Shown here piece after piece: positions 10,050 through 13,021 of a stretch of 13,537 bases of DNA (within the stretch, counting starts at the first letter, position 1; every line of letters begins with the position of its first letter). The DNA lies in assembly GCA_031260095.1 (NCBI GenBank), contig JAIRKN010000133.1, positions 1-13,537 on the forward strand. Direction: 5' to 3'. The notes under the pieces were generated by a model. The model was not told the DNA's origin. It ran no database searches and saw only the letters and a program-made list of their open reading frames with translations. Both the position numbers and the translations under genes were made by a program. This stretch comes from Tannerella sp. Lineage in GTDB: Bacteria > Bacteroidota > Bacteroidia > Bacteroidales > Tannerellaceae.

Positions 10050-10682
10050 TTATTCTTTTTTGTACGTCTCGGTCGGCACGTTTTTAACATTCTCCATTCG
10101 GTTTTTCATACTGTATTCACATCCGCAATAAGATTGATTATAAAACTCATACAATCGCACCAATTCGTTACGTCGTTCGCTGAGTCCGCCTTTACGCCAG
10201 TTTTGCGCCCAGAAAGTAAGCTTCGGAAAATAGGTGACGGCATACTCTCCTGCTTCCGTTATTTGCTCCAGACTTTTCCAACGGGATGCCGCTAATGTAG
10301 TTGCAAGAACCCTGAAACGGTGTTCACTTGCATACATAGCGGCAGCCACAAGGCGCTCCTTGAAACATCTCAGGCAACGTGCGCCCCGTTCCGGTTCATT
10401 TTCCAGTCCTCTTACCTTGTCAAGCCACTTATCATGATCATAATCGGCATCTATAAAATCAAGTCCCGACATTTGAGCATAACGAAGACACTCTTTTTTA
10501 CGGATCTCATACTCCTTATTCGGAAAAATATTTGGGTTATAATAAAACAGCGTCGGACGGATGTCATGTTCCAGCAAATACTCTACAATGGCCGACGAAC
10601 AAGGCGCACAACATACATGAAGAAGAATTTCCGTTTCTCCCCCAGGCGCTTCCAATTCCAACGTTGAATGTTTTCTTGTCAT
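10050..10682 (-). CDS. queH: Epoxyqueuosine reductase QueH
   Basis: 210 residues. QueH reduces epoxyqueuosine to queuosine in tRNA, the last step of queuosine synthesis, and replaces the unrelated QueG. The cysteines expected for its iron-sulfur cluster are visible: C24-C25 (HVCCAPC) and C103/C106 (CLRCF). A redox CxC follows at C186/C188 (YCGCEYS). Core motifs FYYNPNIFPNKEYEIRK and TTLAASRWKS are also family-typical. The ATG at 10680-10682 is chosen because the longer frame's ATG (10712) overlaps the -7 element. It stands alone: 164 bases separate it from the DUF177 start and a repeat array lies upstream. Confidence 0.93.
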   Translation of the reverse strand: MTRKHSTLELEAPGGETEILLHVCCAPCSSAIVEYLLEHDIRPTLFYYNPNIFPNKEYEIRKKECLRYAQMSGLDFIDADYDHDKWLDKVRGLENEPERGARCLRCFKERLVAAAMYASEHRFRVLATTLAASRWKSLEQITEAGEYAVTYFPKLTFWAQNWRKGGLSERRNELVRLYEFYNQSYCGCEYSMKNRMENVKNVPTETYKKE

Positions 10683-10700
10683 ACCTTGATAATTACCGCG

Positions 10701-10708
10701 CAAAGATA
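10701..10708 (-). promoter_or_regulatory. -7 element for queH
   Basis: Minus-strand TATCTTTG matches TAnnTTTG exactly, 18 bases upstream of the queH ATG. No clear TTTG -33 element is seen at the expected distance, so an activator may be needed. The first repeat of the 21-bp array begins 43 bases upstream. Confidence 0.55.
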
Positions 10709-10751
10709 ACATTATTTAACCGACTATCCATTAAAAAACAGGCTAAGTCGT

Positions 10752-10940
10752 ATGAAATATGTAGCTACCTAAATGAATTATGTAGCTACCTAAATGAAAT
10801 ATGTAGCTACCTAAATGAAATGTGTAGCTACCTAAATGAAATATGTAGCTACCTAAATGAAATGTGTAGCTACCTAAATGAAATGTGTAGCTACATAAAT
10901 GAAATGTGTAGCTACCCAATTGAAATGTGTAGCTACATAA
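10752..10940. repeat. Array of nine 21-bp tandem repeats with an invariant palindrome
   Basis: Nine units with an exact 21-base period. Each contains the perfect 8-bp palindrome GTAGCTAC, starting at 10761, 10782, 10803, 10824, 10845, 10866, 10887, 10908 and 10929. The palindrome is identical in all nine, whereas the spacers vary (for example ATGAAATAT, ATGAATTAT and ATGAAATGT before it; CTAA, ATAA or CCAA after it). In two units it extends to TGTAGCTACA. The period equals about two helical turns, so all palindromes face the same side of the DNA. The array lies between the queH -7 element on the minus strand and a -7 element on the plus strand. One plus frame stays open through it (repeating EICSYLN or EMCSYLN), but it has no clear gene context. 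Confidence 0.95.
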
Positions 10941-10973
10941 ATGAGAATAGGAGAATTACTAATTAAATATATA

Positions 10974-10981
10974 TATCTTTG
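10974..10981 (+). promoter_or_regulatory. -7-like element downstream of the repeat array
   Basis: TATCTTTG matches TAnnTTTG exactly and lies 15 bases before an ATG (10996). No TTTG -33 element is visible. It points away from the array into a region with no intact gene. Confidence 0.4.
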
Positions 10982-10995
10982 CCCAAAAAAAGGTT

Positions 10996-11136
10996 ATGAA
11001 ATGCCCGTATTTGTAGCTGACGGATTGTTCTCCACTGTTTTTTGAATTTTTACAGGAAAGAACGATAGCAAATAATAACAGAGATATGGATAAAAACTTT
11101 TTCATAGGAATTGAGTTATCGCTGTTCTACCCTTAA
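10996..11136 (+). pseudogene. Short broken reading frame, possibly a transposase remnant
   Basis: A 46-codon frame starts at an ATG 15 bases after a -7-like element but has a TAG at codon 7. The rest (LTDCSPLFFEFLQERTIANN and onward) stays open and ends with MDKNFFIGIELSLFYP, encoded from an internal ATG at 11086. The KNFFIGIELS part resembles the N-terminus of IS110-family transposases, where an [FI]GIDVSK-like motif carries the first catalytic Asp; here Glu replaces that Asp and the frame stops soon after. The similarity is short and could be chance. Confidence 0.25.
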
Positions 11137-11194
11137 GACGACATAAGTTTGAAGATGTTATAAGATTCACCTTTTTTTTGCAAATAACAAAACA

Positions 11195-12280
11195 TTATGA
11201 TGACAGAGGTTGAAAACAAACTAATTTATATCCGACCCCTTTGATAGTAACGATCTGTATCAACGGATCTTTTTTAAGGTATTTACGTAATGTGGTGATA
11301 TAAGTATCAAGACTGCGTGAATAGATGATACCGTTGTTGCCCCAGTTTTCTTCCAACAACTGACTGCGTTCGACGACATTGCTACATTGCATACAAAGAG
11401 CATGCAGAATTGCATTTTCTTTTTTATTTAACTGTATCACCTCATCAAAGCCTTGTAACTCATTTTTTGCCGGGTCAAAGACATATTGTCCCAAACGAAA
11501 AATATTATTTAAATGAGGATCCTTCTTCATTGTATCACCATTATCTGGAAGCAATCCGGCCGATGTTCCTGCGGATGTTATTGTGGCCACATCCAACTTT
11601 ATCCGTTTATCCCGATAAAGAAAACACAGGCAAAAAGCAGCAGCTAAAACCATGCTGATTGTAGCGATCAGATAGCCTGTCATACGATTCAATATCATTC
11701 CGGGGGTCAATTGCAGGATAGCACGCAGAGATTCTTTTTCAGAAATGGATAATATAACGGTTGCTTCCGGATTCATTTCCGGTTGTGCCTTATCTGGAAG
11801 CAGGGACGAGTCCAGTACTTCCCCCGATAAAATATCAAACCGTTCGATCACGAAATAAACCGGAATATCACGTTCGTGAAGCATACCAGCAAATAGGTCC
11901 GCCAAACAATAAATATTCATAGGTATGATCTGCTCACGTAAATCCACAAATACACGATTTATAAAACTTTCGATCGAATGACCGGATGAATTACTATACA
12001 CAATCGTATCCGGTTCGGGGCATTTACGTATAATCTGCACCTCTTCGGCGCCACAACTTTCGATAGTAACAGCCCCCGGATTTATAATATCCACAACAGG
12101 AATACGATACGTTTGCTCTTTCCGGTACGCCTGCCCGAATGCCTCCCGGACCTCTACCATTAATTGACGGCAGGTCAAGCGATATACATATTGTAACCAT
12201 ATACCCTGTAATATCAGGATAGAAACAATACCCAGAAACAGGAACAGGAACAACCGGGATTTTTTTGTAGGTGAAACCAT
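11195..12280 (-). CDS. Membrane-anchored winged-helix transcriptional regulator (sensor domain plus OmpR-type DNA-binding domain)
   Basis: 361 residues. A first membrane segment (about 9-33) is followed by an extracytoplasmic region of about 165 residues, a second membrane segment (about 201-222), a linker, and a C-terminal OmpR/PhoB-type winged helix (about 259-356). The last has LNKKENAIL, then the recognition-helix pattern SRSLDTYITTLRKYLKKD and the wing IKGVGYKL. The N-terminal half has the layout of Bacteroidetes sensor kinases, but no histidine kinase or receiver domain is present, so the protein would join sensing to DNA binding directly, like ToxR or CadC but with DNA binding at the C-terminus. 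Cys residues at 76, 87 and 125 lie in the outer domain. The ATG at 12278-12280 gives a basic N-terminus before helix 1. No neighbouring partner gene is on the same transcript. Confidence 0.85.
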   Translation of the reverse strand: MVSPTKKSRLFLFLFLGIVSILILQGIWLQYVYRLTCRQLMVEVREAFGQAYRKEQTYRIPVVDIINPGAVTIESCGAEEVQIIRKCPEPDTIVYSNSSGHSIESFINRVFVDLREQIIPMNIYCLADLFAGMLHERDIPVYFVIERFDILSGEVLDSSLLPDKAQPEMNPEATVILSISEKESLRAILQLTPGMILNRMTGYLIATISMVLAAAFCLCFLYRDKRIKLDVATITSAGTSAGLLPDNGDTMKKDPHLNNIFRLGQYVFDPAKNELQGFDEVIQLNKKENAILHALCMQCSNVVERSQLLEENWGNNGIIYSRSLDTYITTLRKYLKKDPLIQIVTIKGVGYKLVCFQPLSS

Positions 12281-12601: not shown

Positions 12602-13021
12602 ATGAAACGAATTATTTTTTTAGCCATTGCATGTGTTTTATTCAACATTGCGTACGCACAGGAAAACAACGAAAAAGTACAAAATTCGGATACGACTGCC
12701 GTTTTCAGCAAGACGATCCATGACTTTGGAAACATCTCCGAATCGGGAGGTATTCTGGAATGTGAATTTCCCGTCACAAATACGGGCAACAAACCATTAG
12801 TTATCACAAAAGTCTCCACAAGTTGCGGCTGTACGGCTTCGGAGTGGAGCAAAGAGCCTATCGATACCGGAAAACAGGGATTTATAAAAGTCACCTTCAA
12901 TCCCAAAGGGCGTAGTGGTGAGATCAACAAATCACTGACCGTACTCACAAACGGAAATCCGTCCAATATCAGGCTGAAAATAAAAGGTAACATTGAAAAA
13001 CAGCCGGTCGCACAGAAGTAA
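12602..13021 (+). CDS. Secreted DUF1573 domain protein
   Basis: 139 residues with a signal peptide (MKRIIFLAIACVLFNIAYA, cleavage before or after Gln20). The remainder is one DUF1573 domain, an immunoglobulin-like fold common in Bacteroidetes. Family marks are IHDFGNI (39-45), PVTNTGNKPLVI (57-68), the SCGCTA motif (C75 and C77), FNPKGRSGEINKSLTVLTN and a final LKIKGN. The function of the family is unknown; it is expected in the periplasm or at the outer membrane. The gene stands alone with its own promoter, converges with larC, and is followed by a very strong hairpin. Confidence 0.93.
   Translation: MKRIIFLAIACVLFNIAYAQENNEKVQNSDTTAVFSKTIHDFGNISESGGILECEFPVTNTGNKPLVITKVSTSCGCTASEWSKEPIDTGKQGFIKVTFNPKGRSGEINKSLTVLTNGNPSNIRLKIKGNIEKQPVAQK

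Follow-up and report, generated by a model that had tools for sequence, protein, structure and literature searches.

What is an array of nine identical palindromes, repeated at a strict 21-bp step, doing just upstream of a queH gene in a gut bacterium? The window analysed here, i.e., the whole stretch of 13,537 nucleotides of contig JAIRKN010000133.1 of a Tannerella sp. (GCA_031260095.1), carries exact copies of the word GTAGCTAC at positions 10761, 10782, 10803, 10824, 10845, 10866, 10887, 10908 and 10929, a total of nine where shuffles of the window lead one to expect 0.03. These palindromic cores, which span 10761..10936, are embedded in a tandem array (10752..10949) resolved by Tandem Repeats Finder into 9.4 copies of a 21-bp unit with the consensus ATGAAATATGTAGCTACCTAA (92% matches), and the dyad in the unit is perfect over 8 bp. 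The nine identical palindromes and the exact period reported by the first-pass annotation were thus all found. Its further remark that spacer bases differ between units is true, though of modest extent, as 7 of 104 spacer letters are changed, in 5 of 13 columns, among the eight internal units. In those same units 0 of 64 core letters are changed, a contrast that within this array alone is marginal (Fisher p = 0.045).

The gap that holds the array is bordered by two genes of the minus strand, so that the neighbours point the same way. One is queH (10050..10712), which encodes an epoxyqueuosine reductase (PF02677, E 9.6e-61) and has the array upstream; the other (11195..12280) encodes a protein with a C-terminal Trans_reg_C domain (PF00486) and its stop codon makes the other border. 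The two TATCTTTG boxes that had been read as outward-facing promoters are where they had been placed, one on the minus strand at 10701..10708, as the -7 box of queH, and the other on the plus strand at 10974..10981. Behind the latter there is no gene but only a 34-aa ORF, the next plus-strand gene being a DUF1573 gene at 12602. A 48-aa ORF of the minus strand (10959..11105), whose start we take to have the look of a lipoprotein signal, stops about 10 bases from the array and is possibly a gene remnant, the gene having perhaps been lost on formation of the array. Elsewhere in the window, a minus-strand gene with an aminoglycoside 3-N-acetyltransferase-family domain (PF02522; 1332-2195) adjoins a weakly deacetylase-like one.

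One reading of this layout is that of an operator, where a dimeric repressor or a nucleoid protein would occupy nine phased sites on one face of the helix and control queH and/or the opposite promoter. The palindrome is perfect in 9 of 9 units, the 21-bp step corresponds to two helical turns, the array precedes the -7 box of queH by about 44 bp, the core is kept against the spacer, as described below, and unrelated arrays are also found just upstream of queH in two other genomes of the genus (G010 and G031). Despite this, the comparison with relatives makes such a role quite unlikely. A queH gene was detected in 35 of 41 genus genomes and 30 loci were fetched; in 2 of the 29 other loci (G008 and G009) the Trans_reg_C gene is found beside it, several loci ending at contig ends. 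The gap between both genes, of 482 bp in the window, measures about 195 bp in G008. In these two gaps the alignment reveals no array, while the queH promoter stretch TTAAATAATG is kept, with a TATCTTTG box in G009 and, in G008, a weaker version of it. Furthermore, a much closer relative (G002) shows 98% DNA identity with the window queH up to position 10717, beyond which it has different DNA, without the array. The array is therefore a feature of this lineage, and the promoter downstream of it manages elsewhere in its absence. The proposal of an operator between two outward-facing promoters is not supported, as the queH promoter is kept without the array in both syntenic relatives found and the plus-strand box is geneless. 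It is probable that the array arose or landed upstream of queH in this lineage, with no demonstrated tie to that gene.

Additional layers of evidence bear on the same point. In the flanks listed, as judged by eye, the GTAGCTAC arrays of other genomes adjoin unrelated genes in mixed orientations. Moreover, in G031, a single-contig genome of 3.0 Mb, promoter gaps are not preferred by arrays: the gaps with an array comprise 26 co-directional, 9 convergent and 12 divergent ones, and those without 62, 29 and 25, respectively (p 0.69). Five of the 29 other genus loci have unrelated arrays of 21- or 42-bp period, with at least four copies, at a distance of 2-212 bp from queH, upstream in G010 and G031 and downstream in G021, G024 and G030. 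None of the five carries GTAGCTAC, and as a group they lie as often downstream as upstream, which speaks against the operator. Filtered counts of arrays with at least four copies (4 in 94 kb at queH loci vs 6 in 387 kb elsewhere, p 0.11) leave a small door open to some link between arrays and the surroundings of queH. A partition or nucleoid site, which had also been put forward, is unsupported because the GTAGCTAC arrays are scattered across the genomes of relatives. Arrays of this kind are a warning against assuming that they are the operator of the adjoining gene.

The first-pass annotation had proposed to search related genomes for GTAGCTAC at a 21-bp period, and the word was indeed found in relatives: the pattern GTAGCTAC-N13-GTAGCTAC occurs in 8 of 100 of them (own genome included), and all 8 are among the 41 of the genus. 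Five composition-matched palindromes searched as N13 pairs gave 5 positives in 205 genome tests in the genus (CATCGATG 1, GATGCATC 1, CTACGTAG 2, GGTATACC 1 and CCATATGG 0), and outside it CATCGATG and CCATATGG were each present in 1 of 59 genomes. With the own genome left out, GTAGCTAC is found in 7/40 and the matched palindromes in 5/200 (Fisher p = 0.0009), i.e., the word is about seven times commoner. The own genome (73% complete) has one array with GTAGCTAC, and dispersal is accordingly shown in relatives and not in the genome of the window itself. As for the other words, other species of the genus have a palindrome of their own in 21-bp arrays, with GGTATACC on two contigs of G007 and CTACGTAG, of 10 matches, in G008, and CATCGATG is arrayed at the same period in G037, of the genus, and in G071, of another family of the order.

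When the GTDB species genomes were searched with a three-core pattern, 30 stretches were recovered, of which 25 belong to metagenome-assembled genomes of a single isolate-code series (12 genomes, of Bacteroidales and Treponema). They are distributed over 16 contigs of five 'Tannerella sp.', 3 contigs of two Prevotellaceae, 1 of another Bacteroidales and 5 contigs of four Treponema. According to the passages of PMC11707648 that give the samples, the codes Gsp477, Gx485 and Ncb351 stand for lower termites, with the genera Glyptotermes and Neotermes as hosts; for the other codes a termite host would follow from the series, the portions of PMC9137090 that bear on sample codes leaving them unsettled. 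In the Treponema family, GTAGCTAC was present in 7/195 genomes and the reversed word in 3/195, a difference that is not significant (p 0.34). No paper listed in the literature searches describes, as far as its title and the opening of its abstract tell, 21-bp palindromic arrays in termite-gut bacteria.

Among the remaining 5 stretches, 3 are contained in open frames whose length ranges from 170 to 598 codons; those of a Nostoc and of a palsa Bacteroidetes are not clearly coding. This brings up the possibility that the array encodes a seven-residue protein repeat, as 21 is divisible by three, the array is traversed by a frame of 144 aa and 4 of the 6 matches outside the termite series are in longer open frames. 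However, the 144-aa frame overlaps queH on the opposite strand and the 23 arrays have no open frame in common, with 0 open in Trep_Cd_a, so that coding is a highly improbable explanation. A plasmid or phage origin was rejected, given that plasmid and phage records produced 0 matches to window 10500-11200 and that the sole IMG/VR contig with the three-core pattern has it inside a 940-residue open frame. A CRISPR array was also discarded, as the spacers are nearly identical within the array and 0 of 8 window proteins scanned with Pfam are Cas proteins. Rfam at gathering scores gave no known RNA family, and a tRNA search found no tRNA. Folding of the array is far better than that of its shuffles, with z -9.6 for RNA and z -13.5 for single-stranded DNA; since any tandem self-complementary array must fold well, these scores are not used as evidence.

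The constancy of the core can be addressed with all the arrays at hand. In 21 out of 24 GTAGCTAC arrays, each with at least four internal 21-bp units, departures from the column majority amount to 48/1704 letters in the core (2.8%) and 393/2769 in the spacer (14.2%), so that the core changes about five times less than the spacer in the arrays examined. The change rate is 0.5-8% within four bases of the dyad centre, 4-15% five to eight bases away, where it dips at the eighth, and 15-30% at nine and ten; it is 15% at the opposite pole, and both sides are roughly alike. Because exact cores served to find these arrays, a bias towards conserved cores is built in, and the question was repeated on arrays chosen without regard to the word, drawn from the queH loci, a 400-kb sample of G031 and 387 kb of contigs from elsewhere in the genus. 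Inverted repeats in the consensus units exceed those of shuffled units in G031 (n=48 arrays, Fisher p 2e-12, a generous value because the G031 arrays are not all mutually independent) and in other members of the genus (n=10 arrays, p 0.003); for five arrays of other genera the p value is 0.25. More importantly, inverted-repeat columns are less variable in 40 of 48 arrays of this choice (38 of G031 and 10 others) and more variable in 8, and when the masks were rotated around the units the observed mean difference was never reached in 20,000 draws (p < 1e-4). The claim that the palindrome is kept against faster-drifting spacers is hence borne out in the 21 arrays with the word as well as in the 48 chosen without it: conservation of the core is convincing across arrays, and not from the window array by itself. 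The data are no more than suggestive of a dyad that reaches into the spacers (p 0.08). Compensatory changes account for 8 of 11 double changes in the dyads, against 276 one-sided ones, and are too few to lean on, and the tests within arrays do not separate a site dyad from a hairpin.

These results also bear on the simplest alternative, a neutral minisatellite generated by replication slippage, for which the shared word and the constancy of the core would be chance plus ascertainment. In its favour, arrays are not placed by promoters, the core constancy is marginal in the window array, other palindromes form 21-bp arrays in single genomes (GGTATACC in G007, CTACGTAG in G008) and the enrichment of GTAGCTAC in Treponema falls short of significance. 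Nevertheless, such an origin would leave unaccounted for the excess of GTAGCTAC over matched palindromes in the other genus genomes, the lower variability of dyad columns in arrays picked without the word, and the likeness of units between families described below, and we regard it as unlikely. The first-pass annotation had named two observations that would point to a neutral minisatellite: a core that mutates as often as the spacer, or the same array at random sites with no promoter link. They came out differently, since the core changes less than the spacer, while the arrays do appear largely at random sites, with unrelated ones near queH in 5 of 29 other loci. On account of this split, the array is neither a plain operator nor plainly a neutral minisatellite.

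Several observations indicate that array DNA is dispersed within and between genomes. In G016, GTAGCTAC is present on at least 9 contigs, and up to 186 bp of flank, at 92% identity, recur from one array to another; likewise, two arrays of G024 share 189 bp of flank at 91.5%, and two arrays of the Treponema genome G102 have several identical unit variants in opposite orientation. The flanks of the window array match none of those of other arrays. To compare spacers, we relied on a permutation test, as the BLAST E-values of tandem DNA are inflated. Against column-permuted spacers (1000 permutations), the resemblance reaches p < 0.05 in 28% of 232 pairs between genomes, and in 13% the p value is below 0.01; these values are uncorrected for multiple tests and come from pairs sharing arrays and genomes. 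The strongest resembling pairs cross family lines. One is formed by the window and the Prevotellaceae genome Pq454_bin27, with 11.1/13 spacer letters alike (p 0.001); both arrays align at 88% over 196 bases, their flanks have nothing in common at E 1e-3, and the Der proteins of the two genomes are 60% identical, vs 80% within the genus. The other links G030 and the Prevotellaceae Cd354_bin121, with 10.4/13 letters. Altogether, 3 of 22 pairs involving the window reach p < 0.05. Across phyla, 21 of 90 pairs do so, and the ten best all join G016 with one Treponema, Cd354, at up to 9.0/13. Five Treponema arrays were compared with the window, and its spacers resemble those of none (p between 0.16 and 0.69).

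The shared flanks of the G016 and G024 arrays would be expected of a BrickBuilt-type miniature transposable element, composed of leader, array and tail and moved by a transposase encoded elsewhere. For the window copy, no leader, tail or target duplication is definable at the ends, the relatives that retain the gap being too diverged to mark them. Its flanks match no other array flank, no terminal inverted repeats are seen, and the Y1 transposases do not track GTAGCTAC, which altogether make this an improbable account. Genes for IS200-like Y1 transposases are present in 17 of 41 genus genomes, 4 of the 8 carriers of GTAGCTAC among them, and none was found in the own genome G000 (73% complete) or in G016 (99% complete); for these reasons the Y1 family is an unlikely mover of the arrays. 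REP elements with their RAYT transposases are dispersed intergenic palindromes and in this they are similar to the present arrays, but REP elements are not tandem 21-bp arrays and here the Y1 transposase is unassociated with GTAGCTAC. A REP mobilised by a RAYT was thus set aside, no Y1 transposase having been found in G000 or G016.

BrickBuilt itself, from Porphyromonas gingivalis, is the nearest of the known systems. It is described in sections of PMC4596501 as a minisatellite/MITE with a 23-nt repeat and with a leader and a tail bearing terminal inverted repeats, reported there without BLASTn matches outside P. gingivalis. Both systems belong to Bacteroidales and, as far as those sections go, have several features in common: direct repeats stand in tandem between genes, with a unit of about two turns of the helix; the number of copies varies; one genome can hold several loci, whose neighbours are unrelated; stem-loops are predicted; and the unit contains conserved as well as non-conserved sites. 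The window array, with a 21-bp unit and a place between two genes, agrees with BrickBuilt in the first of these features. On the other hand, the unit is of 23 nt in one case and 21 in the other, and the likeness is one of description; the leader and tail with terminal inverted repeats are not seen for the window copy; and BrickBuilt is reported to lack BLASTn matches elsewhere, whereas the present units are alike across families. Several copies per genome, framed by leader and tail, were not found in the own, 73% complete genome. Since the window copy fails this leader-and-tail test, we do not file it under BrickBuilt.

Beyond the word GTAGCTAC, there is a whole class of such arrays, best seen in G031. 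In the 400 kb sampled from this genome there are 62 likely non-coding arrays, 42 of them with a period of 40-42 bp and 7 with a period of 22. Those with a period of at least 20 bp and at least three copies make up 4.0% of the sampled DNA, and arrays are found in 47 of the 163 sampled intergenic gaps of at least 80 bp, as delimited by ORF-based gene calls. Mostly, each array has a dyad of its own, so that no single sequence-specific protein could read all of them. None of the 62 has a unit of 30-33 bp, although three helical turns would fit. The 40-42-bp arrays can be likened, by period alone, to the 41-nt tandem repeats of 464/PgRS of P. gingivalis, as mentioned in parts of PMC4596501. Outside G031, the density of tandem repeats in the genus (3.6 and 7.4 per 100 kb) is not above that of other genera (5.4), while arrays with a 20-44-bp period and at least four copies, a cut-off chosen afterwards, number 10 in about 481 kb of the genus and 0 in 315 kb of other genera.

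Taken as a whole, the evidence makes it probable that the window array belongs, as one copy among others, to a satellite-like minisatellite that is dispersed in termite-gut bacteria, does not code for protein and keeps its dyad. The DNA of the arrays would be copied within and between genomes, and the dyad might be retained because copying or amplification depends on it, through a hairpin or cruciform intermediate. Alternatively, retention of the dyad could be due to a dimeric protein that binds it. For the class as a whole we lean towards dependence on copying, which is favoured by the large number of G031 arrays with unlike dyads; within the GTAGCTAC subfamily, there may be a partner that recognises the sequence.

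Bacterial genomes are regarded as poor in satellite DNA. The arrays may, as a bolder and more doubtful proposition, represent horizontally mobile satellite DNA that crosses families and phyla among the bacteria of the lower-termite gut: a selfish dyad unit with a period of two or four helical turns, whose spread and array growth would be dyad-dependent, and which in G031 would fill intergenic spaces as satellites do in eukaryotes. If so, the satellite itself would move between species, its units recurring in distant residents of one habitat, and the mechanism would become testable, i.e., what copies the array and why the dyad stays while the spacers drift.

A comparable sharing has been described for the intergenic TAACTGA heptamers, short direct repeats that occur across distant phyla and for which, in the passages of PMC4679880 concerned, horizontal transfer is suggested without a mechanism; for those of Bacteroidetes, the same passages describe the gaps of close relatives as lacking obvious repeats. 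The present arrays are similar to them as short intergenic direct repeats shared across phyla, and differ in that the heptamer unit is of seven bases and, in a Beggiatoaceae genome, is located mostly just upstream of start codons, according to that part of the source (PMC4679880). Heptamer tandem repeats (CGTTCAT, TAGAGGG and CTCTACC) are also present in G016 and G031, in the same stretches as the 21- and 42-bp arrays, and recall the TAACTGA heptamers of the literature.
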